The notes beneath the pieces are model-generated. The model did no database searches, was not told the DNA's origin, and saw only the letters and a list, made by a program, of their open reading frames with translations. The translations under genes and the position numbers were made by a program. From Conchocele bisecta (Eukaryota; Mollusca; Bivalvia; Lucinida; Thyasiridae): a DNA stretch of 64,000 bases. This document shows positions 23,440 through 64,000 of this stretch, in pieces. Numbering within the stretch: position 1 is the stretch's first letter; every line of letters starts with the position of its first letter. The stretch covers positions 44,385,331 to 44,449,330 of the forward strand of contig CM055265.1 in the NCBI GenBank assembly GCA_029237695.1, read 5' to 3'.

Positions 23440-23488
23440 ATGGCCGCCGATTTACCAAAAGAATTTGACGTTATAGTTTTAGGCACAG
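23440..23488 (+). CDS. CHM: CHM exon 1
   Basis: 49 nt encoding [17 protein letters not shown], ending phase 1 before gtttag. An in-frame upstream ATG at 23401 exists, but the family N-terminus starts at this Met. Confidence 0.92.
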
Positions 23489-26400
23489 GTTTAGTAATTG
23501 TGCCCTTTAATTTTCGCTTTATTGTTATATTTTTAGCAAGATACGGAACATTACAGATTTTTCACTATGTTGTCACTGATTTTGATGCACCTTACTTGGT
23601 TATTTGTGATATTTCTGTACGTGTCGTATGGAAAATTCAGTGGGTGGGGTAAATTTAGTGGGTGTGAACATTTAGTGGGTCTTCTTATTGTTTGTTCCTG
23701 AAATCTGATAATTAACCAAATACAAATATTTGATGCAGTGATGGTGTATTTGATTTGATTTTGTGCATATCGTTCATAATTTGTTGACATTATTAACTAC
23801 AACCTTTCTATTTTGGGGGTCCGACGTTTTTTCACATGTCTAAATAAATAAAATATGGAGACATTTATATGCACTTGTCATTAGGATGGCAAAAAATAAA
23901 TTCCAACATTATCATGCTTCATATTACTTATCAGATCGTAACCACATTTGCTGAAGAAATGAGGTTTATGGCTTTTGTGTCCAGACTAGCTGTTGGTCTG
24001 TTACTGCACCCCTGCAATCTAATAAGGATTTATATGGTAAGAACTAAGAAGCATGGCTAGTGTTTCGACTTAATGGTGAACAGTGTAGACCCTGATCAGA
24101 CTGCGCAGATGCGCAGGCTGATCTGGGTCTGCACTGGTCACAACGGCCATAAGCCCCCTGTCTCAAGTCACAGCCAAGTTTTGTTTTAATGTAGCACAGA
24201 TATTATTACAATTTTCAGGTATGCCGGAGAGTATCATGGCTGCTGCGTTCTCCAGGATAGGACAGACAGTACTGCATTTAGACAGGTATGAAGTATTCAT
24301 CGCTAAATATCAGACACACCATGCGATTTTGTACCTTCTGACATCTGCATAATTTCATTAAATACCTATTAATTTTTTTCCGTAAATGGTATCAAAAGCG
24401 CCAACTTTTGACTGTATTTATGACAAATATTGTAAATTTTGTAAATGTATTTAATGAAATTATGCAGATGTCTGAGGGTATATATTTAGTCAGTTCATAA
24501 ACACATGTTCATAGGCATATTTGTACTCCCCGATGCGATTGTAAGGTGGCATATTTGTTCCTTCTATATTATCTGTACGTCCATCACCATGTACGTCTCA
24601 GACATTTAGCATATTTGGAAGAATTCATAGCTATGGTCCTGTGACTCTTGTCATCTGAATCAGGAAGTTGGAGTGGACCAGACAAACATCCTCATTTCGA
24701 GCTTGAGAACCGAGCACATACCCAGAAAGTTTAAAATCTTGGACCTAGCAGCTGCACTGGTGACAAATGCCATACATCCATCTTTAGTCACAGACAGAAT
24801 TGTGTACTTTGTAGGAATGATTACTATAGCGGAGACTGGGCCTCATTCAACTTGAAGTCTATAGAGAAATGGGCACAAGAACACTCGGTGGTAAGTAAAA
24901 CACAAACTGGATATACTTCTATATGTAGTTGTACAATATGTAAAAGGAACAGTATTATTTTGTATGTGTTATCAGTGTCAGCGTCAAAAAGGTTAATGCT
25001 AGTGATTCTATGCACATCTTGGCATCTGAAACTTGTCTTATGTATCTACATGGTAGTATTAACAAGACATCATTTCAGCACTATGAGAAGCCAAATGGCT
25101 ACTTTGGCTGCCAGTAGCACCAACCTAGGATCTACGGTGTGTAATACAACCCTGGATTTGAAAATATACGACCAGCATAGCGCCAGATCTGTGCAGTCTG
25201 ACCAAGGCATATGCTGTTCATAATTTAGCCACTAAAGTAACATTTCTGCCATTGGCAAAATAAGTAGATCTTAATCTGACATTGTTAGTATGCAACTGTA
25301 TAGGGATCTACATTTAACCATTTCAACCCTACAGATCATAAAGCCAACATTTGCAAACACTGTAGATCCAGATGAGTCGGCTTGTTATGAGCTATCTTAT
25401 CTGGATCAGCTGTATTTGTCATGATTTGAAGATTTTGAAAAAAAATCCTTTTTCAATTATGGTTATGGAATCGTCCAAACATTAGCATTTTGTCAGCCAG
25501 CAGTCGTTACAGGGTGTAGATGATACAGCGAGCCCGGACAACTGTTTGACGCGGCCCGAGGATGAGGGGAGTCACGTGGAGGGTGGGGAGAGCCTGGTAC
25601 AGCTGCCCCTATACAGCCGCAGCTTCAGTCAGGCCGACATGCAGTTCCACGTGAGGTACTGATACAGCCGATAAATGTCATCGTATCTTCTTACTCTCCT
25701 AACCTGAAATGGAATTGTTCTTTTCTGATGAGATATTAACCTGATAATACCACGGTCATTGTATCACACACTACTACATGTAATCATGGCCGCAAATGGC
25801 ATGCTTCTGTTAAACGCCATTCCATTATCTTTAATTATTACATTTCAATCTATTATATACATGGATTTACCTGTGAGAGAAGTCAACATTAAAATACAAG
25901 TAATACACTGTGAAGAGAACACCCGTAATCACCTGCGTGCACTCTCCCACAGTTGATATAAAATAAGCACCACCCATAAAAATGCATACGCAGTTACAAA
26001 CGTACCCGATGCATCATGAAATGTATTTTTGTTCGCAAATGTTGTTCATAAATGTAATAAATAGGATATTCATCATACATGTAATTGTTTGAATAGCTCG
26101 AAATAATACACTCGTGTACGTCGGCTTCCGCGTAAACAACTTGTTCGCTTCGCTTACTCGTTGTTTACGTAGAAGCTGACATAAACTTGTGTATTATTTC
26201 ACGCTATTCAAACATATACGATGGAATATCTTCTATATCTTTCATTTCAAGACTCATTACAAGACAGATCGTCTGCATCTACAATGTTTGCAAACATTGA
26301 CCTTATGTGGGGTTTAGAGGGCTACTTTAATTAGTTAATAACTTGTTAAGTTATTGTATTATAGGAATATGATTGACAAACTATAAATATAATCACATAC

Positions 26401-29400
26401 AACGTTAAAGCAGTTGACAGTGTAATACTACAGATGATTTACTATCCGTCCACTCCTAATTAGCATAATGAATGGGGATTTCAATCACCTGCAGTATTTC
26501 TGCCATACACTCGAGGCTGATCTTTAAACTTTACACATTGGGAGGGTGTGTATATAAATTATGTTATTGATTTGTGTTGCTTTAATTAACCTTAATCTTT
26601 TCAGTGATGTAGATGAGAGTGCCAGCAAAAGTGTTGAAGCAGGAATTAATCAGTCATTAGGGAAACTAAGTTTGGCAGAAACAGAAGTCCGGAAAGAATG
26701 TGATGATGCTGATTCCAAAAACGAACATGATGAATTATCAACAAATGTCAGTAGTCAATCAGAGGTTGAAGGTGGTTCTGATAGCCAGCATGATGTTGGC
26801 AATATAAACACAGAGACATGTGGTAGCCAGGATACAACTGCTGTGGTTGGTGAAAGCTTGTCTCGATCAACTGCTGAAAGTCCTGGAGGGCAGATTCCAT
26901 TGGAAGGAAGTGAAATGACTGATAACTCTGACAAATCTCTTGAAAGCAATGTAGTCCAAGGTGATGCTGTTGTCTGTGATGATATTAAAGGAGATAGTCA
27001 TGATGATGGAGCTGAGATGAAAGACAAGCCTGACACATCGGAAAAGCAGTCTGAGAATGATGCAAATGGTGAAGCTGTTCAGTCAGGGGAGACACTATCC
27101 TCAATGGAAGTGAAAACAGAATTGATATGGACAGTGTCAAAACTGAGAGAGGAGTGGAGGAAGTTCAATTTGGACTTATCACCAAAAGTAAGCTATTTTT
27201 GTGATCATATATTTTCCCCACAATCCACATAGTTATGGTTTAATAGTTTCATGCTAATTATTGGGCTATTCCATCAATAAAAACATTGTATGTTTTGGAT
27301 CTAAGAATACTGACAGACATTGTAGATCCAGATGAGACATCTCATTATGAATGTTGTATTTCTGACCTGTCCTGTTGATATAATGAGCCATCTCATCTGG
27401 ATATACAACATTTACAAATATTGTATCTATGGCCTGTTGGGTTAAAGGTGTTACTTTTCATCCAACGTTTCCAAGAGCTGAAATATTTGATTAATTTTTA
27501 GCTCATGTAAGCTATTGTTACCGCAATATGTCCGTCGTCCGTCCGTGAACATTTTCAAACGTCTTCTCCTCATTAAATTTCTTGCCCTACAATACAGATG
27601 AGCCTACCTCACCCATGTGTGTATTACCACACTGGCCAGGTGTAGGCTCATCAACACGGTACATCCAAACCCAGTCTAGCTGGGTTTGCCATTTACCATG
27701 TACTTGTGTGTATGGATCAGGAGAATAAAATAGATGAACACAACTCAGGTTTTGGGAAAATGAATCATATATATACTTGAAAATTATTGATGGGAGAAGT
27801 ATGTGATAAGGCATAACACAATGTTCAAAGTAACCAAAATACATGCATGCTCATTATTTGGCATGTGAAGCATAGACCTCATGAATGGTGATAGCCTGAG
27901 AAAGGAGGTCATGGATTGTGCACTAACGTACAGACGAAAATGTAATCGCACTGACACTGTTTGTCTCCCGAGGACTAGAACATACATGTACCCCTCTCGA
28001 ATTGCAATACGATATAGAGTAATGTAGTAATACTGCATGATGGCAGGGCCTATTAATTAAGTTAACATTTGACCCAGACGATGTCCACTATATATGATTC
28101 AAGCTATTCTACAGACAACACATATTTTAATACCTAAACTACACATGTATATAACATCAATGCATGCCTACAATGCTCATCACTCAGGGAGGGTGGGCGG
28201 GGAGAAAGTGTCGACAACACGTCTTATCATACGCCAAGTTAACAAAGGAATGAGGCCGCTTCCAAACATTTCCCGCGGTTCAGTCAGCCTCTGCCGGGGC
28301 TGGTGTGAGATGCGCTGTGATTGGACAGATATTAAGGCGCCCACAGGGACCGCTGCTATGATTGGTTGGGAAAGATAATCTCCAACCCCGTGAAGTCCAA
28401 ACGATAGACCAGTGGGTTAGAGATTATCCCAAATCCCCGGGAGAGATATGCTCGGGTCACTAGGTTACCGATGCGTTGCAACCAACCATGACGGACGGAG
28501 CAGACGCTTGAAACTGCACATGTTGGACATGTAACTGATCGTGAACCAGGACCTAATCCCGAGTGACTCGCTATGTATCCATGCATGTACATAAATTGCT
28601 TGTTGCCGGGTGCCCAATTTAAAACCAGATTACAACCTAATCTGACTCTTAAATTTCTTGCCCTACAATACAGATGAGCCTACCTCACCCATGTGTGTAT
28701 TACCACACTGGCCAGGTGTAGGCTCATCAACACGGTACATCCAAACCCAGTCTAGCTGGGTTTGCCATTTACCATGTACTTATGTGTATGGATCAGGATA
28801 ATAAAATAGATGAACACAACTCAGGTTTTGGGAAAATGAATCATATATATACTTGAAAATTATTGATGGGAGAAGTATGTGATAAGGCATAACACAATGT
28901 TCAAAGTAACCAAAATACATGCATGCTCATTATTTGGTCTTATAGCATCAACAATTTCCCAGTATACCTCCAAATTCCCAAAATCTATAGTGAGTAGAGT
29001 AGTTTAGAAATACATGTACATGATACTAATTAAGATGGCGACGGTTATAAGTCGACAGCCAATCATTACGGTGAAATTGTGTCTGACAATCAGGAATTAG
29101 CTGCTGCTGCACCCATTGTGGATGCCACCAGACGGCGCAATTGTAGAGAAGGCTCCAGATAACGCTCATACGCACTGCTGTTCCAGTCACCTTGTATTTT
29201 TATGAGATCCGCCGGTAAGCCACATTGAAGAGCATATGTAGCGCCACCACGACGAAAGCTATGACCGGAATACTGGGCTGGGGGCACTCCACAACCACGC
29301 AGACAGGATCGGAGCCTGTCTGTAAAAGTAGTGGCTGTTAAAGGGACTACGTTATCACCTGTTTTATATCGAAATAAAGGGGTCGGTTTGACATCAAGCG

Positions 29401-32400
29401 GGCACTCCAAAGCCAGCTGAACCAAGATTGTGGACGGGCAAAATGGAGAGTTGGGGATAAGGGGAAGTGGGATATTCAAAGTGCGCTGGCGAAATTGAAT
29501 CACCTTGGACCAGCGGACCGTAAGCACTACCCCATCTGACGCGAAATCCGCGTCCCCGGTGCATAAATGACGGGTGGGATAAAACTGCGAAACAGACGGA
29601 ATAAGAAGATTAGACTTACGGAAAAAGGAGAAGAAACCAACTAGACAGGCCGCCCAAAATGTTCTGTCTAACGAGAGCTGAAGATTCAATTGTCGGAAAA
29701 TACCCCGTAATAACTGAAATGTAATGGGAAGTTTTTGATTAGTAGCGTGCCCTTTCATTCTACGGACACCTTTGAGAATGGAAGTCACATACCAATTGTC
29801 ATGCAGGGGGTTTGGTAGACCAGCTTCCAAGTGAAAAAGGCGGACAACATTTAGATATTGCCGGACAGACGAAAAAGAGAGTCTGCGAGAGAGGTAAGCA
29901 ATATAACGGCCCAAATTAATGTGGGACAAAGGCACAGGTGCAATTTTGAGTTCAGCACAGAACCGCAAATACGAGGCCCGCTGACTGCCATATGTCTTAG
30001 TGGTAGACGAAGAAAATGTGTTGCTGCGATATAGGTGGACCTCATTGTCAAGACTGACCGGAAGGGTAGTTAGCATCTCGCCAGGAGCGGAGGGGTTCAA
30101 GTTTCGCTGAGATCTAACCAGCCTGTCTGCACATCCAATATCCGACTCTGTCAAGAAGAAAATGTAAAGACCCTAATGACATATGCCAGATCAGTGGGGT
30201 TTGGGAAATGTAAGGCATCAACCTTTCAATATGACCTGGGGAAGGCAGTCTTGACGCACTATCAGCGACAAAATGTATGCCTGGGATGTGTTTTGCAGTC
30301 AAGTGGAAATTGTATGCACTAGATAACCAAAAGAAATGACGGAGACACTGCATAACTACACTATTGCGGGATGTACCCTTGTTAATTGATGAGACCGTGA
30401 CTGAGTTGTCCGAATATATTATGATATTTTTGTTTGTCCAGTGTGGGGCCCATCTCTGAGCTGCAATGACAACTGCCAACACTTCCTTTTCATTGATGTG
30501 TAGATCTTGGGCACGTGGCCAATCAATTCCCCAATTGCAATAAAACCAATCTGTGCCGAAACACTCCCCTGCTGCATCCCCACAGGCATCAGTGAAGACG
30601 CATTCAATTGGGGTGCGATCCAGCAACATCGATCTACCATTGAAACATTCTAGAAATCGTGACCACCAGAGAAGATCCTCTAGAATGTCCATAGTCAGTA
30701 AGGTTCTATGTGACCCGTGTTTGAGGGTGCGGAGGGTCCGCCTTTCACCACTCCTGCAGCCGACGACAACCGTCCCGCGATGGACTGTAATTGTCGTTTA
30801 GTAACGCGCTTTTGTCGCAAGAACCCTTGCAGTTCTTGTTTCATTGCTTCAAGCTTTTGTGTGGGCAAACGCAACTGCATAGACGTCGAGTCTAACTCTA
30901 TTCCGAGGAATGTGATTACTCTAGTGGGATCAACGACTTTTCCCCAGTGAATATTGAATCCAAGCTTCCGGAGAAGCTGAATGAGGCACGCGAGTGCCTC
31001 CGCACATTGCACTTGCGATTCCGAAGTCGTCAAGGTACGCGATTATCAGGTCGTAGCCCTTCCTCGCCATCATACGTTTAACGGCTTGAGTTAGTCTATG
31101 GAATATGCCGGGGCTGAGCTTAGCGCCGAACGGAAGCCTGGTATCTTTAAGGTAAACAGTGTTACCACCAAAGTCCCATTTAAACCCTGTGACCTGTTGA
31201 CTGCGTTGACTTATTCCCACAGAGCGGTACGCAGACTTTAAATCGACCTTGGCGAACCAGCAATTTTCTGTCATAAGGGCAGCTGCATCATCGACACGGT
31301 CAAATTTTTGTCGCCAGTCTGATGAGCAAAAATCATTAACCGCGTTCTCGACTGGTCTAGAACAGTCGTGTATGAGGCGGACTCCGCCATCAGGTTTGGG
31401 GATGGCGGCCATAGGACTAATGATTTTTGGCAGCCCATTACAAATGACATAATTACCATGTTCTATCTCAGTCTTAACTTGTTCAGATGCTTTATCAAAA
31501 AGCGGGCTCTTAGGCTTGACTGATGGGTGATTTGAGGACATTACTGATGGTATATTGGTACATTCATCTATTATATCAAAACCATTGTGTATACCACCTA
31601 GTATAAATGTTTTATCCTCATCGTCACCCAGTTCTCCAGCCCAAGCAGCTAAGTTAAGACCATAGGAAGGGCGGACCTGAACCCCTAGTTTTTTTCAAGC
31701 GTATGTATTGCCGCTGAATGTTGATAGTCACCAAACTTCATGGTCATAGTCCTTAGGTAGGGGAATTACAAAATTGTTAAAATGACGTCATTACCTAATC
31801 CAAGATGGCCGACGTCTAAAAATAGCACAAATTCTTCAAAAAATTTCTTCTCTAGAACCGCCAACCGGATTTCGACATAACTTGGTAGGAATGATCGATG
31901 TACAATGCTCTTTCAAAGTTGATGACCCCGGGGTCAAAAATGGGCGTGGCCCGTGGGGTAAAATTTTATTTTTGACCGAATATGGTCATGTCTATATCAA
32001 ATCGAAGGTATCGATGAGGCGATTGCTCTGGTGCAATATTTGTCGGAATTGGATGATTATGTTATCCATGATGGCCGCCAAAAGGTCCATTTATTTGAGA
32101 TTTTGAACGTCTTTTTCTCAGGAACCACATGGCCGATGCTGGCCAAACTTCAGAGTAAGTTAAGATCCTTGGGTGAAGCATTTTCAGATTTGGTAACATG
32201 AGAGTCATCGCTTAATCCAAGATGACCGCCATCTAAAAATAGCACAATTTTTTTAAAACACATGAACACATGAATGTCACATTCTCCTCTGGTGTTCATG
32301 GAGTCAGGTGAGCGAATTAGGGCCATTATAGTCCTCTTGTTTTAATGTTCACATCGTCCACTCCACCTTTGTTCATCTGGCTATATCATGTTTGTCACAC

Positions 32401-35400
32401 CATAACAAAACTGAAGCGGCCATTGGAAGATGTGTGGCTAACATTATGGCATTTATGACCAGTGTACAGCGGTCTGAACAGGTTCTACACAGTTCACCGT
32501 TAATCAGTGAAATGGCTGTCATGTTTAACAGGAATGGTCCATATCAGGTTCAGGAGTATACAGGCATACATGTATCAGGAACTAGATCATCCATTAACCC
32601 TTTCACCCCCAAGTAACTGGAATGGATTTTAATATGTGAATTTTGCAACCAATCCAACTGTCACAAAATGATTTTCAGACTAGTCTATGAGAAGGGTGTG
32701 TTTTTGTTCTCAAAAATTACTTGCAAAAAGTGCAGATCCTGATGAGACGGCTCGTCACGAGCCGGCTCATCTGGATCTGCACTTTTTGCCAATACCACTA
32801 TACAGGCCTGTGATGTTGAAAGGGTTACTGCCATGAGCCCCATTTCCCCAGTCACTGACCCGGAGCTAGATCAACTGCAAATGCACATATCCCAATTTAC
32901 CTGTATTCCATTACCTATATTCCTGGTGTATTGCCATTTTCAGGTGTTGTTCTCTGGTGGCGACATGGTGGAATTGCTGATATCATCCGACATCGCCAAG
33001 TATTGTGAATTCAAGACAGTTACCCGCATTCTAACTATTTTGAATGATAAATTGGAAAAGGTAAGTGATTAAAGTTCACATCATTATTGCGTACTTTTGA
33101 CACCATAGAAATACACATTGGTCACCACCACTCGCTAAAATAATATTTATAAGCACATTAAAAAATTTCTGCACACATCCATCAAAATTGTAGCATCAGT
33201 GCTGAAATTTATAGAGAATCATACAAACTTCCTTTTCAAGTATGTCTTGGAATGGTTCCTGTAAACTCCATGTTTAGCAGAATAAAGTATCTATGTGCAT
33301 GTGTTGGGATCCATATTCATGATGTGTAGAGGGATTGTATTCTACAGTGGAACCTCTCTAAACCAGACACCGTGGAAATATATGTGATCTCATTTGATTG
33401 GTTTCTTGGTAACGCATCTCAGATAATAATGCATGTTCATGATTGCAAAAGTCATATGTATGTCCCAAAATGGTAATATGTCCGATTTACAGTGGAACAT
33501 CTCTAAATCGGACAACCTGGGTACCTCCCAGGGTGTGCTGTTTACAGAGGTTTCACTGTTTAACTATTTCACCCCTAAGTAACTGACATGGACTATTTCC
33601 TGGTGAGACTGTTCCATTACACAGAAAAGGGGGTCATTTTGTAAAAAATAAAAAAATATTCACAAATGGTGTAGATCCTGAATAGACGGCTCATTATGAG
33701 CCGTCTAATCAGGATCTACACCGTTTGCAAATGTTATATTAGGAAAGAGGTCTCTAGTATTGAAAACGTTATCCCAAATTTACTGATTGTATCATGATGT
33801 GACAGAAAGTCGATAGGTACTTGTTCAAGAGTGGAGTAGCTAAGAGTCTATGTTTTAGCTACCTTGTCAGAGCAATAGGATGTGTCGAGCAGTAAGAAAG
33901 TGTCTATGTTTTTTAGCTAACGATGTTCCAAGAGCGGATGTGTTCAGCAGTAAGAAAGTGTCGATGAATAGGTACTGTTCCAAGAGCGAATGTGTTCAGC
34001 AGTAACAGTTTTAGGATTCGACGATGTAGAAGTGACCTGTTCAAGAGCGAATGTGTTCAGCAGTAAGAAAGTGTCTATGTTTAGTACCTTGTTCAAGAGC
34101 GGATGTGTTACGAAGCATGTTTTGGTACCAAGCTGTAGCAGTGTCTATGTTTTAGGTTACATGGTTCAGAGCGATGTTTTCAGCAAGTAAGAGTGTCGAT
34201 GTTTTAGGTACCTTGTTCAAGAGCGGAATGTCACAGTAAGAAAGTGTCTATGTTTTATACCTTGTTCAAGAGCGTAATGTGTTATCAGCAGTAAAGAAAG
34301 TGTCCTATGTTTTAAGGCTTACCTTAGTTCAAGAGGCGAATTTGTTTTCAGCAATTAAGAAAGTGTCGGATGTTTAGGCACCTTGTTCAAGAGCAATGTG
34401 TTCAGCAGTAAGAAATGTCGATGTTTTAGGTACCTTGTTTCAGAGCGGAATGTGATTCAGCTAAGACAAGTGTCGGAATGTTTTAGTACCATTGTTCAAG
34501 AGCGGAATGTGTTCAGCAGTAAGAGAATTGTCCGAAAAATCGTTTATGTAGGTCAAGAGCCGAAAATTGTTCACAGTAAGAAAGTGTCGATGTAGTACCT
34601 GTTCAAGAGCGGATGTCAAGAGTAAAAAGTCGATTTTTGTTTTAGGTACCTTGTTCAAGAGCGGATGTGTTCAGCAGTAAGAAAGTGTCTATGTTTTAGG
34701 TACCTTGTTCAAGAGCGAATGTGTTCAGCAGTAACAAAGTGTCGATGTTTTAGTACCTTGTTTCAAGAGGGAATGTGTTCAGCAGTAAGAAAGTGTCTTA
34801 TGTTTTAGGTACCTTCGTTCAAGAGCGGTATGTGTTCAGCAAGTAAAAAAGAAAGTGGTCTTGATTGTTTTTAGCCAATCACCTTGTTCGAAGAAAAAAT
34901 TAGCGAAGGTAATTTGTTCAGAAAAAGGACAGTAACAAAGAGTGTAAAAACCGATGTACCAAACCGTAAACCAAACAAAAAGGGTTTTGGTAAAAAAAAC
35001 AAGAGCGGATGTGTTAACACATAAGTAATAGTTTAAAGTAAAAAAAAAACCAAGTCAAAAAAAGCATTAAAAAAAAAGTTTAGTCCAACAAATGCCATTA
35101 TTGTTCAAGAGCGAATGTGTTCAGCAGTAAGAAAGTGTCGATGTTTAGGTTACCTTAAGAATTCAAGAGCCAAAGATGTGATCAGTTCAGTAGAGTAAAG
35201 TGTCGATGTTTTAGGCACCTTGTTCAAGAGCGGATGTTGTTCAGCAGTAACAAAGTTTCTATGTTTTTAGGTACCTTGTTCAAGAAGCGGATGTGTTCAG
35301 CAGTAAGAAAGTGTCGAGGTTTTAGGCACCTTGTTCAAGAGCGGATGTGTTCAGCAGTAACAAAGTGTCATGTTTTAGGCACCTTGTTCAAGAGCGATTG

Positions 35401-38400
35401 TGTTCAGCAGTAACAAAGTGTCGATGTTTTTGAGTACCTTGTTCAAGAGCGATGTGTTCAGCAGTAAGAAAGTGTCTATGTTTTAGGTACCTTGTTCAAG
35501 AGCGAATGTGTTCAGCAGTAAGAAAGTGTCGATGTTTTAGGTACCTTGTTCAAGAACGAATGTTTTGTTCAGCAGTAAAGAAAGTGCGATGTTTTAGGTA
35601 CCTTGTTCAAGAGCGAATGTGTTCAGCAGTAAGAAAGTGTCGATGTTTTATGTACCTTGTTCAAGAGCGAATGTGTTCAGCAGTAAGAAAGTGTCGATGT
35701 TTTAGGTACCTTGTTCAAGAGCGGATGTGTTCAGCAGTAAGAAAGTCGATGTTTTAGGTACCTTGTTCAGGAGCGGATGTGTTCAGCAGTAAGAAAGTGT
35801 CTATGTTTTAGGTACCTTGTTCAAGAGCGGATGTGTTCAGCAGTAACAAAGTGTCGATGTTTTAGGTACCTTGTTCAAGAGTGGATGTGTTCAGCAGTAA
35901 GAAAGTGTCTATGTTTTAGGTACCTTGTTCAAGAGCGGATGTGTTCAGCAGTAAGAAAGTGTCTATGTTTTAGCTACCTTGTTCAAGAGCGAATGTGTTC
36001 AGCAGTAACAAAGTGTCGATGTTTTAGGTACCTTGTTCAAGAGCGGATGTGTTTAGCAGTAAGAAAGTGTCGATGTTTTAGGTACCTTGTTCAAGAGCGA
36101 ATGTGTTCAGCAGTAAGAAAGTGTCGATGTTTTAGGTACCTTGTTCAAGAGCCGATGTGTTCAGCAGTAAGAAAGTGTCGATGTTTTAGGCACCTTGTTC
36201 AAGAGCGGATGTGTTCAGCAGTAACAAAGTGTCTATGTTTTAGGTACCTTGTTCAAGAGTGGATGTGTTCAGCAGTAAGAAAATGTCGATGTTTTAGGCA
36301 CCTTGTTCAAGAGCGGATGTGTTCAGCAGTAACAAAGTGTCTATGTTTTAGGCACCTTGTTCAAGAGCGGATGTGTTCAGCAGTAACAAAGTGTCGATGT
36401 TTTAGGTACCTTGTTCAAGAGCGGATGTGTTCAGCAGTAAGAAAGTGTCGATGTTTTAGGCACCTTGTTCAAGAGCGGATGTGTTCAGCAGTAACAAAGT
36501 GTCGATGTTTTAGGTACCTTGTTCAAGAGCGGATGTGTTCAGCAGTAAGAAAGTGTCGATGTTTTAGGTACCTTGTTCAAGAGCGGATGTGTTCAGCAGT
36601 AAGAAAGTGTCTATGCTGGAGAAGAGAATGCTGATGAAATTCCTCAAATTCAGTGTGGACTACGAGACGAAAATAAAAGAAATACAAGGTATGTTTCAGC
36701 AGTTCAGCAGTCCTATCTTCTTATATAAATGTAAAAATACATATTCATACATGTATTATTCCCATCCCACTGGTCTTTCAGATGAGACTTGCAACCGAGG
36801 TCACGTCTCTCTATGACCTTAGCTGTTGCTGTCATGTTAAACCCATTCACTTTCACTTTTTAAATTTATGACTATGATCGGAGAAATGGAGTTTCTGGCA
36901 TTTTTGGCCAATTTAATTTCTCATCTGCTGGCACAAAATGTGCCAACAGATGAGAAATTAAACTGTTAAAAAATAGTGACTGACATTCTTACAGCTTGAT
37001 ATGAATATATTCTGTTGGTTTGAAGCATAATGTGCCATTTCTCCAGTCACTATTGTGTAAGAATATATATGATTATCAAAAATGTGTTACTTTCATGTTC
37101 TTTGTATCATGGAGTTTTGGATACATCTATCGGGTAATTCTGTCATGACACTGTTTGCCGAAATAAAAAGTAGCGATACCCTTTGCTGTGTTTTAGACTA
37201 CCTTGAGAGACCATTCACCGACTTCCTTGTTTCTCTGAAGATGACGCCAAACATCAAACATTTTGTTCAACATTCCATCGCCTTCGCCACTGATTCAACA
37301 TCTACAAAACAGGTACCAGTACCTGATTTCACCAAAATTGCAAAGTATACTTATCTAGCAAAGTGTACTTTGAGGGAGTAATCATTTATTTTTCCCGCAA
37401 TTCTTTATTATACCCTCCGCAACGAGTTGTGGTGGGTTTACTGGAGTTTGTCCGTGCGTCCGTGCGTCATTAAACTTAACATCAGCAAAATATTGTTATA
37501 ACTTCTATTTCCTTCATCTAAAATGCTTAATATTTCACCCATGCATTCCTGTAAGGCTCTACTACCATGCTGTGCCAAATCCACGACTGTCCAACCCCCG
37601 CTGATCCCAAGGTCAAGGTCAAATACTTGGTCTCTTTACAAAACTTTAACATCAGAGAAATAAGTTATAACTTCTATTTCCATCATTGAAAATTCTTAAT
37701 ATTTCACTTGTGCATTCCTCTAAGGTTGTACTATCATGCTGTGACAAATCTACGACCGTCCAACCCCCGCTGATCCCAAGGTCAAGGTCACATACTTAGT
37801 CTCTTTACAAAACTTAACATCAGAGAAATATATTATAACTTTTATTTCTTTCATCAAACATTCTTAATATTTCATGCATGATTCCTCTATTTACAAAAGT
37901 TAATATCAGAGAAATTGGTTATAACTTCTATTTCCTTGCTCGGATCTGCTTCACATTTCACACACACATTGCTCCAATGGACCTCTACCCCCCTATGACA
38001 AATTTACATTTGTGCCGCCCCTGCTAAGCCCAGAGTCAAGGTCACAAGCCCACACACGTGTATTTTTTTTACATGTTTAGAGGTACCTGGGCCCACGTGG
38101 TGGGGGGGGGGGGGGGGCTGGGGTATTCCGTATTACTGACCAATCTAGTTTCATATTGAACTAACAACTTCATATATTTGATGATTAAAAGTATGCAGAC
38201 ATTTTGGCTGTGTTAATATAATAAATTCAGTATAATAAAAATTTATAAATTTATCCTTAAATTGAAAATTTCTCCCTCACAGTTTATTTAGCAAGATAAG
38301 TATACTTTGCAATTTTGTTGAAATAGCGACTGATACCGAGTACTCTCTTTAACTACATTGTACTTGAGGTGTATCTTCTGTAACTACATCAGCCATGCAG

Positions 38401-41400
38401 AGGTCCTGTTGAACTATTGTATGTAAATTCAATAAACACAAAAGATTACAAACATTAATGGAAATATATCCAATATTCCAAAATGATAGTTGAATAAATT
38501 ATACGACAATTGAAATTGTTTCTAAGGAGCACTTTGACGTTTTGAAATTGACTATTTTGACACTCACATATTTGCCTTTTTCGGCTATGGAATTAATTCC
38601 TGAAAAACTATGTTAAATTACATTTTGTTGTGTACTAGACTGCTTTATTTGACCTCAAGATTTTGTGACCACTTGATGGGTCAAATATGTACACGTACAT
38701 AGACAATTGTGTCTCCTAAATTTCATGTTATATATCATTATTATGCCACTATGCGATAGCATTGGGGATCTTATTGCTTTACTCTTGATGTTCTGTCCAT
38801 TGTAATTTATGCCAAACTGTTGGTTAGGGTTTCACCATTGTGCCAGAACTTCAGTATATCTAGATGGATTAAGTTCAAACACTCGACACTTATTAACAAG
38901 GCTCACACCACCTTTAACATGATCTTGACCTCTTTGACTTTCACAAATCCATTGTATCAAAGCGTTTCTAACAGTTTATTCATCATGCCATTAGTTCAAT
39001 TAAAAAAACTTACAGGATTACCAGTAATTTAATATTTGGACACCCAATATTTGTTGACATATGTGACCACTCATACCACCATTAACGTGACCTTGCCCTA
39101 CATAAATGTAACAAAAGCCCTTAGTCATTACACTGATGCTATTCGTCCAACAAAAGTAGTTCTGAATCCATTGTAGCACTGATTTATGTGTATCTACTCA
39201 ATGCTGGATATAACTATGTGTTATCAGACACTATGTATTCAGCCAATACAAAGTTTGTTGCCTGATAACCTGAGTGAATCACTGCCTCACCAACAGGGCC
39301 TGGAGCAGACCCAGAAGTTCCTGCTCTCCCTGGGGAGGTATGGCAACACCGCATTCCTCTGGTCCCTGTACGGCAGTGGCGAACTGCCACAGAGCTTCTG
39401 CAGGTATCGTCTCCCACTCAACTACACAAGTGGAAGACTCGGAACTATGACACCAAAAAAATGCCTATTAAAAAAATCCCATTACCCCACCCACTTGGTC
39501 TCGTACAATACCATCTTCTATGGTACTTTATGAGACCAAGTGGGTGGGGTAATGGGATTTTTTTAATAGGCTTTTTTTTAGCTCACCTGAGCGAAGCTCA
39601 TGTGAGCTATTGTTACCGCAATGTGTCCGTCGTCGTCGTCCGTCGTCCGTCGTCGTCCGTGAACATTTTCAAACGTCTTCTCCTCGGTAACCATTGGGTC
39701 TATAGTCACCAAACTTCATGGTCATGGTTCTTAGGTAGGGGGATTACAAAATTGTTAAAATGACGTCATTACGTAATCCAAGATGGCCGCCGTCTAAAAA
39801 TAGCACAAATTCTTAAAAAATCTGATTTCGACAAAACTTGGTAGGAATGATCGACGTACATTGCTCTTTCAAAGTTGTTAAAATGGTGACCCTGGGGTCA
39901 AAAATGGGCGTGGCCCGTGGGGTCAAATTGGGGTCAAATTTTATTTTCGACTGAATATGGTCATTTCATATATCAAATTGAAGGTATCAATGAGGCGATC
40001 ACTCTGGTGCATTTTTTGTCGAAATCGGATTGTTATGTCATCCAATATGGCCGCCGAAAGGTCAAAAGGTCGCTCTTTTATTCGAGATTTCAAAATTCTT
40101 CTTCACATGAACCGCTTGGCCCATGGTAGCCAAACTTAAAAGTTATGGTCCATGGGTAAAGCCTTTTCAGATTTGTTAAAATGGAGGTCATCGCTAATCC
40201 AAGATGGCCGCCGTCTAAAAATAGCATAAATTCTTAAAAAATCTTCTTCTCATGAACCGCTTGCCGGATTTCGACGAAACTTGGTAGGAATGATCGATGT
40301 ACATTGCTCTTTCAAAGTTGTTAAAATGGTGACCCCGGGGGCCAAAAATGGGCGTGGCCCGTGGGGTCAAATTGGGGTCAAATTGGGGTCAAATTTTATT
40401 TTTGACCGAATATGGTCATGTCATATATCAAATTGAAGGTATCAATGAGGCGATCACTCTGGTGCATTTTCTGTCGAAATCGGATTGTTATGTCATCCAA
40501 GATGGCCACCGAAAGGTCAGAAGGTCGTTCTTTTATTAGAGATTTCAAAATTCTTCTTCACATGAACCGCTTGGCCCATGGTAGCCAAACTTAAAAGTTA
40601 TGGTCCATGTGTGAAGCCTTTTCAGATTTGTTAAAATGGAGGTCGTCGCTAATCCAAGATGGCCGCCGTCTAAAAATAGCATAAATTCTTAAAAATTCTT
40701 CTTCTCATGAACCGCTAGCCGGATTTCGACGAAACTTAGTAGGAATGATCGATGTACAATGCTTTTTCAAAGTTGTTAAAATGGTGACCCCGGGGTCAAA
40801 AATGGGCGTGGCCCTTTGGGTCAAATTTTATTTTTGACTGAATATGGTCATGTCATATATCAAATCGAAGGTATCAATGAGGCGATCACTCTGGTACATT
40901 TTTTGTCCAAATCGGATTGTTATGTCATCCAAGATGGCCGCCGAAATGTCAAAAGGTCGTTCTTTTATTAGAGATTTCAAAATTCTTCTTCACATGAACC
41001 GCTTGGCCCATGGTAGCCAAACTTAAAAGTTATGGTCCATGGGTGAAGCCTTTTCAGATTTGTTAAAATGGAGGTCATCGCTAATCCAAGATGGCCGCCG
41101 TCTAAAAATAGCATAGCCGGATTTCAACGAAACTTGGTAGGAATGATCGATGTACATTGCTCTTTGAAAGTTGTTAAAATGGTGACCCCGGGGTCAAAAA
41201 TGGGCGTGGCCCGTGGGGTCAAATTGGGGTCAAATTTTATTTTTTACTGAATATGGTCATGTCATATATCAAATTGAAGGTATCAGTTAGGCGATCACTC
41301 TGGTGCAATATTTGTCGGAATCGGATGATTATGTCATCCATGATGGCCACCAAAAGGTCCATTTATTCAAGATTTTTAACGTCTTTTTCTCAGGAACCAC

Positions 41401-44400
41401 ATGGCCGATGCTGGGTGAAGCATTTTCAGATTTTGTAAAATGAGAGTCATCGCTTAATCCAAGATGACCGCCATCTAAAAATAGCACAATTTTTTTAAAA
41501 CACATGAACTCAATGTCACATTCTCTTCTGGTGTTCATGGAGTCAGGTGAGCGAATTAGGGCCATTATGGCCCTCTTGTTTTATGTCATAGGTCCGAGTC
41601 TTGCACCTGTGCTCAACTACTGTCTACTCAACTACTGTCTGTGCCACATAAAGTCCAGTGATGGGTGAAACACAGGATGATACTAGTATTATCCCTTTCA
41701 ACCCTAAATAACTGGAATGGACTGTGATATGTTAATTTTGTGACCAATCCAATTGTCACAAAATTATTGTCAGATAAATCTTTTTTGTCGAGCCCGCTTG
41801 CGGAAAGCGAGACATAGTGATCACAATGACGTCCGGGTGTCCGTGTGTGCGTGTATCCGAAATCTGTATTAAAGTTTTTAAATACCTTATATCTCTGCAG
41901 CACTAAGTCACATTGACTTGAAACTTCATATGCTTATTAGTCATCATCCATATATTCATGATATGTCCCACTCATGCGGCCCCTGTGCCCAAGGTCAAGG
42001 TAAAATGACTTGAAGTTTGTGTTAAATTTTTGTAAAAATTTGTGTTAAAGTTTTCAGATACCTACTATCTCTGTAACCGTAAGTCGGATTTGCTTGAAAC
42101 TGTGTATGCTTATTGGTCATCATCCATATATTCATTATGTGGCCCCTGTGCCCCAAGGTCAAGGTAAAATGACTTAGAAGTTTGCGTTAAAGTTTCTGTC
42201 AAAATTTACGGTAAAGTTTTCACATACCTACTATCTCTGTAACTGTAAGTCAGATTTGCTTGAAACTTTGTATGCTTATTGGGCATCATCCATATATTCA
42301 TTCTGTGTCCCACTCATACGGCCCCTGTGCCTCAAGGTCAAGGCCAAATGACTTTCCAATGGAAATAATCGAAGCATGTTGCAAATTATTCTAAAGTGCT
42401 GTCAAAGCATGTTTTTGAAGACAAATATGGAAAATAGTAAATCAACAGCAGACGACAAAAAAATTAAGATTGCGTTCTAAGTGTTAATGAGGATCAAGCA
42501 GGATCAACAGTATTTGTAAATGGTGGATTTATGGTATGTGGGGTTGAAAGGGTTTAACAGGTTAAATATATTATCATATTATCAAACTTTATATGAACTT
42601 GTATTTTTTCTAAATAATACATTTTTCTAATAATATTTTTTCCCCAATGAAACAATTCCATCAAATATTGATTTAATTATGAATAATAGATTTATCTAGT
42701 ATAGGGGATTTTAATATGGTGAAGATTTTGAAAATAATTTTTTTTATTATGTGTAAGCTGATATTCAAAATACATGTAAAACTTTTGCTATTGTGATTGA
42801 CAAACCCAAAATATAAACTCACTTCAGAAAGAAGAAAAATTGTGGCTTTCGCGACTGCACGTTATGAACGTAAAGATAAATAATTCCAGCACAAAAATAT
42901 TTACACAATTCCCTAACATTTGATTGGTCCGTTGCAAGTCTCCGTCCAAAATTTATATCCCAGTAAACTCCATGTAGAACTACTTTCCGTAACCGTCAGG
43001 CGCAGTTAAAATAATTCTTAAGAAAACGGAAAATAAACTTATTTTCTTGATGAATTTATTTAAAATGCTGGAATTATAAGGAATGAATGGCCTTTTTGGG
43101 GAATTTATCGGGGATATAAACTTGGAAAAGTCGCGGGAATACTGGACGAGGCCTTCCGGCCTTCGTCCAGTATTCCCGCGACTTTTCCAAGTTTATACAA
43201 ATTCCACAAAAAGGCCATTCATTCCTATAGTGAAATCTCTCTAAATCGGACACCCTGGAATTCCAATTTTTTTTTTTTTTTTTCGAAAATTGTAATTTTT
43301 TATCGCTTCGTCCAATATTCCCGCGACTTTTCCAAGTTTATACCCCGATAAATTCCACAAAAAGGCCATTCATTCCTATAATGTAGTTGATGGTTTTCAG
43401 ATAATACAACAATGATGCTTTCTGGATACAAACGTTATTGCACATTACCCTGCAATAAATCACCTTAGCTGTTGATAGGCCATTATACCCCAACAAACAA
43501 ACAAATTACCCTGCAAGTAACTTGTTTTTAATTTTCGCAAAACGCCAGGCACATATACTATCTATCTAATTCAGGATGTGTGCGGTGTTCGGTGGACTAT
43601 ACTGTCTGCGGATGTCTGCATCATCGCTGATACTGGATGACAACAATAAGTAAGTAAAATTCCAATTATGCAGTATTCATTATTTTTATCCTTATAATAC
43701 TGAAGTAAATTGTGTTGTCTGCCAATTTTCTGATGTATATACAGTGAAATCGCGATGGCTCGAAATGCGATGGCTCATAATGCGATGGCTCATAATGACG
43801 GGCTCGCTCGAAATAGCATCGCAGTCCCGATAATTTTCCCTATATGTTTAATGTAATTTACATGCGATGGCTCAAAATGCAACTCCTCGAAAAATGCGAT
43901 CCCTCGAAACATGTTTCGAGTCCCGCGGACTCATTTCTCGCTATTTTGCTATACGATGACTCGAAGTTTGTGTTTGGCTAATTTTCACACCTCTGCGTCC
44001 AACTTGTTACGATCAAAGACCGAGCCACGCTCTACCTGTCTATGAAATGTGGTTTGTTTTCAAGTCCAGTTAATTGCCTAAAGTGGTGCAATTTGATCGT
44101 TAACGTTGTTGATTGCGATCAACGATATACAGAGATTTATTAAATAGTCTGGGCTTCGGCCTCTCGGCGCATTTAATAGTCTGTTGTAAATCATTTCTCG
44201 TTTTTCCGGTAACTCACGGGTTGTACTCGTCGAGTAACCCGAGTATCACAGGAACAACCAGAGTCGTTGCTCGGGTTCAAGTCGAACCCTAGTATCCCAT
44301 GTTCTAGTGGTCTTCATGTTATTCGTGTGGCTACCCGGGAGTCACAATGAAAAACGCCCACTAATAATACCGCACTTCCTAGTTAGGCAGAGATGACTGG

Positions 44401-47400
44401 TCGTGACAAAAAATATTTGCTCTACTGAATTTCCAATCAATGCAGCATTAAATCGGCCTGCACATTCAGTTCAGGACCTGAAATGTTCGTCCTCGACAGC
44501 TATTCATGATGAATAATATTATAGTGAAATAGTAAACACATGTCAAGTTGCAGGAGTCTGCAAGTTGATCAGCGTTTACACTGGTCAAACATTAAGTAAA
44601 GCACGTTTTGTTGCATCACAACATTTTACGATTCACGACTGATTCCCGATTTTTTATGGGCGCCGTATAACGACATTGTTTGAGCTGGGCCCATACTATT
44701 GTTTTGAGTGACGTCACAAACAACTGCGACATTAATTATGTGCGCCACAATTTATAGTAAATACTGGAGCTTTGATCATTTGATAATAATTGAAATAAAG
44801 ACAGTTTTGTAAATACATTTAAATAGTTTATTTAATGTCACATGATAACTTTAATCTGCGAATAAATACTATTATCATCTAAAACATGGATTCACTCTAT
44901 TATGCTTTGTTATTTCCTAATTCTGACGGGTACAGTAGTCAACAAGTATACCAAAATCGCAAGATGCGATGGCTCGAAAGATGCGATCACTCGAACAAAA
45001 TATGCAGGCCGTGGCATTTCGAGCCATCGCGATTTCACTGTATGTATGAATATTTATCTTCTTTACGAGAAGCTTCAAATGAGTGGTCACAACATATACT
45101 ACAAATGAGAAATAACAAAAATAAAATGTTCATAAATTTCATACGCATACAGATATTCCAAAATATGTAATATGTTAAAGGCTTTTCTCATGTACAGTAT
45201 ACAAGCACCTGCTAGTACGCTATTATTATCATGGTACAATTGGGCTTGATTGCATACATATCTAAATATTACATCAGAAGCATGAATAATTTATTTTACT
45301 GAATCCATCTCTATTTGAGACACGCCATGTGATGTTATACCTAAGAACATGTGTGATTTTTCATGAAAATTATTTACAAAATTTTCCATAAATGACGTAG
45401 AAAGTTGACGAAAATTTTCACAGCAAATGCGTATTATACGCATTTGCTGTGAAAAATTTTGTCAACTTTCTATGTCATTTATGGAAAATGTTGTCACCTT
45501 TCGGCGTCATTTACAGAAAATATAACATTTTCTGTAAAAATATTTCATGAAAAATCACACATGTTCTTAGGTACATCACATAGCGTGTCCCATATTACCT
45601 TTAATAGCTGTTACTGGTATATTAAACCGTTGCACTGTCACTTTATTTCCCTGACAAAATGATGTTGAATGATGTGGGCATACTGGTTGCTATGACATTT
45701 TCTCGTAACATATCGGACTGATTGTTTCAGGTGTAAAGGTGTGGTTACCACGGAGGGACAGAGAATAAACTGCAAGTAAGTACAACTTAAACTGTTGTAA
45801 AAAGATTAAAATATACATTTACTGAATTTATTGCGTAAAATTGGCTTTCACAGTGTAATATTAATAATCTTAATACACTAGTGTATTAAATACACAACTA
45901 AGACTGCTATGGAAATGTATTTTGTGCTCAATGCTTTGTCCATGTATAAAGCTGTGCCAATGCAATATATACAATTTAACATATGTGTTGAATTAATTAT
46001 ACCCTGGCTTACGAAGTATGTCGAGGGCACAGGTGATGGGAAAAAATAATCTGATAATCTCTCATTGTATAAATAATAATATACTACATGTATATATACT
46101 GTCATGTGATTATTTTCCCGTCACCTGTGGTCGAGGGGTATATAGTTTTCGTAATTCCGTCCATCCGTTTGTTGAACTTTGTCCGTCCACATTAAAGTTT
46201 TTGGGTACCCATTATCTCTCTAACGGTAAGTCAGATTGACCTCAAACTTCATAAACTTCCTTATCATCATTCATATTTTCATTCCATACCACATTCATGC
46301 GGCCTTCATGTCCAAGGTCAAGGTCAAATTACTTGGAAAGATTTGAGTTAAAGTTTTTGGGTACCCATATCTCTGCAACGGTAAGTTGGATTGACTTCAA
46401 ACTTCATATACTTCCTTATCATCATCCATATTTTCATTCCATGCCACACCCATGCGGTCTTCATGTTCAATGTCAAGGTCAAATTACTTTAATAGATATT
46501 TGTGTTAATTTTTTAAAAAAATATTTGCTTTAAACTTTTTATTTGTCGGTCCATGCAGTGGCCGGGGTAAATGTGAGCCTCTGCTCACTTCACTAGTATG
46601 ATATTTATTAAAGATGTTGATTGATTGGATAAGAAACTTGGCATAGCATACCAGTTTGAGGATAAAAGAGTACATGTTCAATAATTGGTAGACATGTAGC
46701 CACTGAGTTTGAGTATGCCAGCTGTCTAATGACATTGATGTGGTTACACATGGGTTTCTTGTTCATAGATTACTTATACGTTTGTAGTACATGTTGTTCT
46801 ATACAGTGTGTCTGTACATCTACCACTATATTTGCAGATGGCTGATCATGGAACACAGCTACGCTCCAGCATCATTCCTCTCTACACATGGACAGAGGTA
46901 GACATATTAAAGATTATATGTTATGAATGATCAGCAATCTTTACACCAATTTCTTGTTTATTTTTATGTTGAAACCATGGTGTGAGGGTGGAGATGATGG
47001 CTTACCGGTGTAACTGCTGTCAGAATTCCCCCCTGGGCAGGCCCAAACTCCCCCCCCCCCCTTGGGGGGATTTCTGACTAGTCCACATCCCCCCCACCAG
47101 TCCGAAATCCCCCCCCCCCCCCCGGCCCCCCCCCCTATTTTTAAAAGGTTTTAATGATAAGAAACAAATAATATAACAGTGTAGTATTTGCAGTATATAT
47201 GACCTCTTTATAGCCTAAAACTATTTTATTAGGGGTGGGACAAATATACAGTGAAACCTCTCTAAACCGATCTCCAGGGTGTCCGGCTTATAGAGGTTTC
47301 ACTGTAAATCAGGCATTTGATCATTTTGAGCCATAGTTGTGTGCTATTCGATCATGGACATTACCACCTTAAATGAGTTAAATGACCAAGAAACTCATCA

Positions 47401-63152: not shown

Positions 63153-64000
63153 ATGAGTATATACGGACCAGGTAGTTCTTCCGATTGGGTGACAAATTCA
63201 AATAATTTGGAACCTGCAGAAGGGGGATTCATCCCGACAGAGGGCGACTTTTTAACTACCCAAAAAACAAAGGCCTTGATTAATAGAACTATATCGAGGG
63301 CCACGGACGAGATTCACAAGAGTCTACTATCACAACTTAGAATATGCCCTGGCTGTGAATACACAAAGTCGTGAAGAAACGCATACGGAACTAAACGAAC
63401 TAGGTAAAAAAATAACCAAATTTAGAAAAGAGGCCCGGTTGGGGATTGATAAAGCCCGAGAAGACCGTAAGGCTGACATTACGGAGGTTTTATGATGCGT
63501 TGCGCTTAGAAGACTCTCTCAGCAATGAAGCTACACTTGCTGAATTAGACGGGAAAATAATCGATTTTCGAAATGAGGCCACGTCGGGTATTGAGAAAGC
63601 ACGAGAAGACCACCAGGCGGACCTTATGAAGGCTTATGAGGTGTTGCGCTCAGAGGACTCTCTCATCAGAGAAGCGGCACTTACTGAACTAGATAAAAAA
63701 ATAAACCAAATTACGAAAAGAGACCCGGTCGGGTATTGATAAAGTCCGAGAAGACCACCAGTCTAACCTTGCAGAGGCCATTGCGGAGGCTTATGATGCG
63801 TTGCGCTTAGAGAACTCTCACAGTAAAGAATCGACACTTACCGAACTAGATGAAAAAATAGCCGAATTTATAAAAAGAGACCAGGTCTGGGGTTGAGGGG
63901 GTCCGAGAAGACCACAAAGAGGCCATTGCGGAGGCTTATGGGGCGTTACGCTCAGAGAACTCTCTCAACAGAGAAGCGGCACTTACTGACCTATATGAAA
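63153..64000 (+). pseudogene. Coiled-coil repeat protein (fibre-like candidate), frameshifted, runs off the window
   Basis: N-terminus MSIYGPGSSSDWVTNSNNLE, then a charged region and ~48-residue repeats (AREDHQADL, YEVLRSEDSLIREAALTELD, KKI). On DNA the repeats start near 63491, 63635, 63792 and 63937 (144-157 bp apart). Heptad-like Leu/Ala/Ile spacing predicts a long coiled coil. Frame breaks lie near 63365, 63490 and 63720, and in later units. Position after capsid-type genes suggests a fibre or spike-like virion protein, which is inference only. Confidence 0.5.

Follow-up and report, generated by a model that had tools for sequence, protein, structure and literature searches.

Tandem copies of an intron-exon boundary upstream of CHM exon 7 in the bivalve Conchocele bisecta: a probable mirage minisatellite

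Directly upstream of exon 7 of CHM, which encodes a Rab escort protein, the genome of the thyasirid bivalve Conchocele bisecta carries a long tandem array made from the boundary between that exon and the preceding intron. The array lies within a 64,000-nucleotide stretch of contig CM055265.1 (GenBank assembly GCA_029237695.1, positions 44,385,331 to 44,449,330), hereafter the window, which is read on the forward strand; all gene and array features described below are placed on this strand. Window positions 33800-36567 are filled by a unit of 54 base pairs (bp) that abuts the start of exon 7 at 36568. One unit comprises TTTTAG, the last 6 nucleotides (nt) of intron 6, together with the 48 nt from the start of exon 7, and the final copy alone continues into the exon. 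As the duplicated segment crosses from intron to exon within its host gene and adjoins the authentic boundary, the array is by its anatomy a mirage, a kind of minisatellite reported from amphioxus. Our favoured explanation, to which we give a probability of about 0.7, is that it represents a passive mirage minisatellite without a dedicated role, and that the last acceptor would be chosen by exon definition.

Anatomy of the array and its host gene

That the gene is CHM, that the unit combines 6 nt of intron with 48 nt of exon 7, and that only the final unit runs on into the exon had been put forward in a preliminary description of the window, and our analysis agrees with it on all three points. 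A PDB search with exon 7 and a neighbouring exon returned Rab escort protein 1, and 17 CHM exons were located around the array, 13 of them in the window (23440..47547) and four in the flanking loci L009 and L010. Eleven of the window exons were found using a human CHM sequence as the probe, with their boundaries placed by hand, while tblastn with six bivalve relatives (P0001-P0005 and P0008, of 120 listed) added exons 4 and 12. The possibility of a broken gene was raised by the failure of the human probe to find exon 4 and another exon, and by one distant match that seemed to change frame; it was rejected because the probes from the six relatives matched the missing exons and the doubtful exon lay in a single frame. 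Exon 6 (32944..33060), placed by probe matches, ends GAAAAG|GTAAGT in phase 0. Intron 6 (33061..36567) is 3507 nt long, of which the array makes up 79%, and exon 7 (36568..36688) measures 121 nt, its first 48 nt being the last unit copy, and ends CAAG|GTATGT. When exons 5 to 11 are joined in silico over the array, they form one open frame.

The nearest relatives among those listed are the bivalves Ruditapes, Mercenaria, Mactra, Dreissena and Mya, at 49-50% identity. Of the 120 listed relatives (870 matched), 119 contain a 13-residue motif from exon 7 a single time, and one, P0026, gave no hit with the motif used, which indicates that the exon is the source of the array copies. No protein repeat corresponding to the array was seen among the 120 listed relatives of the 870 matched.

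Cyclic alignment was made to a reference unit (36514..36567) that runs GTACC...TTTTAG, with AG|GT at its start, an inner cryptic donor, GCA|GTAAGA, and the acceptor TTTTAG at its end. This resolved a partial unit at the left edge (33800..33816), 50 units extending to 36567, and the 48-nt coding copy at 36568-36615. The alignment score of the array was 3653; sequence of equal length immediately upstream of it scored -1633, and five shuffles scored between -1322 and -1406. Tandem Repeats Finder called 34140-36615 with a period of 54, 45.2 copies, 80% matches and 10% indels, and made a second call at 33924-34109. The reference unit equals exon 7 at 47 of 48 positions, and the sole mismatch falls at a position that is also variable within the array. 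The exon continues beyond base 48 with CTGGAG, and the fifteen clean units (37-51) have TTTTAG in its place. Over 54 nt there are three fixed differences between the exon and the clean units, all of them in TTTTAG/CTGGAG, and the chance that all would fall in those six bases is 0.0008. Because of this clustering, the hexamer of the unit is more likely to be derived from the intron than to be mutated exonic sequence, and a unit consisting of the first 54 nt of the exon (18 codons), in which CTGGAG had changed into TTTTAG by mutation, is disfavoured. The tetramer AGGT recurs at successive unit boundaries, as reflected in TTTTAGGT, which occurs 22 times within 33800-36570 with the real boundary included; it is not present at every boundary, as units beginning GT number 33 of 50.

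The array is specific to its locus. A 175-nt probe comprising the last unit and the exon gave 39 matches in the 1.89 Gb assembly, a lower bound since very common words were skipped, and all of them lie at C1:44419150-44422018, equivalent to window positions 33820-36688; one of the 39 spans the whole probe. With that same limit on the search, the idea that the unit is a dispersed satellite was rejected (39/39 matches at the CHM locus).

Ten distinct variants occur in the exon-derived portion of units 37-51, and seven of them are nonsynonymous. The copies therefore look unconstrained as protein, and the proposal that they serve as coding exons is disfavoured on the same grounds. An open frame of 297 codons, in a single frame, is present in the right part of the array (35216-36700) and is probably a by-product of a 54-nt unit being equal to 18 codons.

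Likeness to known arrays and the choice of acceptor

In amphioxus, mirage minisatellites duplicate intron-exon boundaries in Adh3 and the globin genes BflGb6 and BflGb9 (PMC3087553), as well as in TnC and PGBD5 (PMC3902484). Many of their units carry AG/GT, their lengths are unstable, regular splicing, as judged by reverse transcription polymerase chain reaction, appeared undisturbed, and the draft assembly of one of them was aberrant (PMC3087553). The CHM array resembles them in consisting of tandem intron-exon boundary copies, and in BflGb6 the repeated segment likewise comprises an intron's 3' end and the 5' portion of the exon that follows. The CHM array differs in its mollusc host and in having around fifty units of 54 bp; BflGb6 has 6 and 3 units of 150-160 bp, the PGBD5 mirage has three units of 108 bp, and the units of Adh3 measure 10-72 bp. 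Regular mRNA and length instability are traits known from the amphioxus reports, while the CHM array is known here from one assembly. The array is thus of a known kind and larger than the mirages compared (3 and 6 units). As to the kind, this overtakes the earlier remark that no array multiplying a splice acceptor with its exon edge on such a scale was known: amphioxus mirages have the same structure, and an array in UBC and a two-copy case in potato are close kin.

The UBC gene contains arrays of dual-specific AGGT splice sites (PMC10809524). The CHM array is like the dual-specific arrays of human UBC and VCX3A in having AGGT at its boundaries, an intron that is a multiple of the unit and a unit that is a multiple of 3. 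Unlike UBC, in which the units are coding and can be retained in the mRNA, CHM copies entered through TTTTAG run into a stop in 35 of 35 cases tested. In the potato RdRp gene, a segment straddling a 3' boundary is present in two copies and carries a cryptic GTAAG donor (PMC4974935), and the CHM array shares both the duplicated 3' boundary and the GTAAG donor within the exonic part. In potato the copies number two, and RNA reads support a new intron that works, whereas the CHM locus as drawn represents a lengthening of an old intron. Repeats that make introns have also been described in fungi, including fission yeast and Cryptococcus (PMC3629103, PMC2395259). The ratchet points of recursive splicing in Drosophila (Ubx, kuz, Bx) resemble the CHM unit in having an acceptor|donor and, directly after it, a short exon that has a donor too; they differ in lying in long introns and being conserved sites, in contrast to the many copies, modest donor and 3.5-kb intron of CHM. 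Intron gain by tandem duplication was reportedly proposed in a 1989 model by Rogers. No mollusc mirage was found in the open-licence literature that was searched, and within that literature the scale of the array and its mollusc host are what remains new.

It is likely that the array arose when a tandem duplication happened by chance to straddle the intron 6/exon 7 boundary, and that the duplicated unit then expanded via unequal exchange or slippage in a minisatellite-rich genome. Copies retaining the acceptor would supply their own exit, with every copy except the last being treated as intron, and normal mRNA would be produced via the last acceptor, the one nearest to a strong downstream donor. 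Such a choice would fit the report that splicing of large introns favours those sites that lie nearest to each other across the exon (PMC9225289). In this way a minisatellite-rich genome could gain intron sequence without breaking a gene.

Splice sites were scored with hand-entered matrices, covering ten CHM acceptors and 11 CHM donors. From 33800 through the real acceptor there are 36 exact TTTTAG hexamers, 35 of them premature, and these are followed by GTACCT in 20 cases, GCACCT in seven and CTACCT in two, giving 29 of 35 with near-consensus flanks. The preliminary description's picture of some fifty near-identical acceptors therefore overstates both how alike the copies are and how many acceptors remain intact. 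Joining exon 6 in silico to each premature TTTTAG leads to a stop in 35 of 35 cases, after 4-49 codons (exactly 17 in 18 of them), and among the TTTTAG acceptors the last one alone gives an open product; the expectation that use of an earlier acceptor would truncate the protein is upheld for these 35 sites. In the features scored, the last acceptor is set apart by its place alone, being the nearest to the donor at 36688 across an exon of 121 nt.

Several observations weigh against a passive mirage resolved by exon definition. The real acceptor, at 5.7, is the lowest of the ten CHM acceptors (the others scoring 5.8-8.2), 13 of the 35 premature TTTTAG sites outscore it, and 14 of the 35 have its exact 15 bases. 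Within 60 nt of the real acceptor no sequence fits the branch-site pattern yUnAy, whereas in TTTAC and CTGAT, which do fit it, the A stands 35 and 31 nt ahead of the acceptor of the first copy (33817). The latter objection is weak, because the acceptor of exon 8 likewise has no yUnAy match. This exon (37197..37312), with its acceptor GTGTTTTAG and its donor CAG|GTACCA, both of which resemble the two edges of the unit, acts as a control within the gene. The intron after exon 7 is just 508 nt long, so that exon definition is not certain, and harmlessness at fifty copies would be an extrapolation from mirages with 3 and 6 units. Finally, the splicing outcome is predicted here from DNA, a point that also counts against the stepwise alternative considered below.

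Competing explanations and the quality of the array sequence

The preliminary description held that the spliceosome must use the last acceptor, which goes too far, since 33 of 50 units begin GT and a rebuilt AAG|GTACCT could be re-spliced. In an alternative that we consider unlikely, exon 6 would be joined to any copy, AAG|GTACCT would be rebuilt at the junction and re-spliced stepwise to the last copy, and intron 6 would be removed piecemeal without a scar, each piece being a whole number of units long. The donor GTACCT scores 3.6 in place and 5.0 when rebuilt after exon 6 has been joined, and since AAG|GTACCT is restored at the junction, a premature splice could be re-spliced scarlessly. The 11 CHM donors range from 0.7 to 12.4, the highest being that of exon 6, and the rebuilt donor beats three of them (0.7, 3.6 and 4.5), although the 0.7 belongs to exon 1, which may be misassigned; the exon 8 donor CAG|GTACCA also belongs to this type. 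Further points in favour are the 20 premature TTTTAG copies followed by GTACCT, and the 23 of 50 units that start with GT and end with TTTTAG, formally GT...AG introns, 13 of which are exactly 54 nt long. The unit also has the parts of a recursive exon, namely an acceptor|donor, a short exon of 31 nt and the donor GTAAGA (compare PMC8605326), and UBC uses arrays of this sort (PMC10809524). Against stepwise removal, nine of the 50 units begin GC and three CT, and rebuilt GCACCT donors score -1.6. Moreover, the rebuilt GTACCT donor stands barely above the inner donor of the unit, GCA|GTAAGA, which lies 31 nt downstream of the acceptor (5.0 vs 4.4), the exon junction complex silences the recursive donors of some mammalian exons (PMC8605326), and 54 nt may be too short for a single intron. 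A stronger form of this alternative appears improbable to us: around twenty interchangeable acceptor|donor sites would form a ladder on which premature choices were repaired without a scar, and copy number, which should vary between individuals, would set the speed and yield of CHM mRNA.

A different concern is that the array could be an assembly artefact, either a few real copies that have been multiplied or a noisy left half that is a redundant copy from raw reads. We regard this as improbable too, and the evidence for it lies in the uneven quality of the sequence. Per 100 aligned bases, units 37-51 (35758..36567) show 3.0 substitutions and 0 indel bases, units 25-36 (35095..35757) show 4.0 and 4.2, and the fairly clean units 17-19 (34646..34808) show 3.7 and 1.9. 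Units 2-16 (33817..34645) are indel-heavy, with 7.8 substitutions and 14.0 indel bases, and units 20-24 (34809..35094), at 30.6 and 18.0, are barely recognisable, being 45% A with A-runs of up to 10. The noisy units 2-16 and 20-24 look like uncorrected long-read consensus; because indel bases exceed substitutions in units 2-16 (107 vs 60), these seem nearer to such a consensus than to old decay. The preliminary description placed too much trust in the left half. There the indel bases, absent from units 37-51, reach 14-18 per 100 in places, and this increase and the A-runs favour an artefact.

Support also comes from another array in the assembly, L026, a minisatellite with a 19-bp unit. Close to its start, 800 bp of noisy sequence (L026:80-880) align block for block with clean sequence lying about 850 bp farther along, suggesting possible redundant raw-read sequence. 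The match scores there are 312 and 365 against means of 178 and 196 (z 4.3 and 4.5), but a clean control within L026 reaches z 3.6, so this sign of redundancy is weak. In the CHM array itself, allele autocorrelation and block alignment were both used to ask whether the left half redundantly repeats the clean half, and neither showed it. The alignment took four noisy blocks (33820-34880, one overlapping two others; units 21-24 lie outside them), which have no special clean match, at z 1.0 to 1.9. The fifteen clean units, furthermore, differ in their allele combinations, which speaks against an artefact. Among the 30 better-preserved units (17-19 and 25-51), all seven that start GC have GTAAC instead of GTAAG, and this linkage of positions 2 and 36 points to duplication in blocks. 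Running counter to the linkage are unit 12, in the noisy part, which combines a GC start with GTAAG, and the damaged unit 25, to which the first alignment assigns C at position 2 and G at 36. On balance, we take the array to be real, at least its right half being well supported, and the count of about fifty copies to be provisional.

Least probable of all, and by our estimate very much so, is a regulatory decoy in which stop-containing RNAs from premature acceptors would let copy number tune CHM via nonsense-mediated decay: 35 of 35 premature TTTTAG acceptors do reach a stop within 49 codons, but an exon-derived copy ending TTT TAG gives stops anyway, and the proposal is a prediction from the genomic sequence of one assembly.

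Set in a conserved, single-locus exon of a bivalve, so large an array would offer a natural competition test among near-identical acceptors, for which first-come choice, choice of the site nearest across the exon, and stepwise re-splicing each predict distinct junctions. The interest of the locus lies in this clean test of acceptor choice and not in a new principle.

Genome context and neighbouring features

The genome is rich in long minisatellites. In 280 kb sampled outside the window, of which 80 kb adjoins it and 200 kb lies on one contig, there are four arrays of at least 2.4 kb (L023, L025, L026 and L027, ranging from 2.7 to 7.1 kb), and it is consequently less of a surprise to find one that begins at the edge of an exon. 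Extrapolated to the whole genome from these four in 280 kb, tens of thousands of long arrays might be expected.

Elsewhere in the window, the two CHM exons recovered by tblastn with the relatives only are exon 4, near 25495-25653 (E 4e-6 to 0.01), and exon 12, near 46833-46898 (E 5e-5 to 0.02). Exon 4, which the human probe missed, matches the relatives weakly and is more diverged than the neighbouring exons. A 455-bp repeat with 2.9 copies (39824-41115) lies in the intron after the exon at 39297, and a repeat of approximately 145 and 302 bp (63397-64000) reaches the end of the window.

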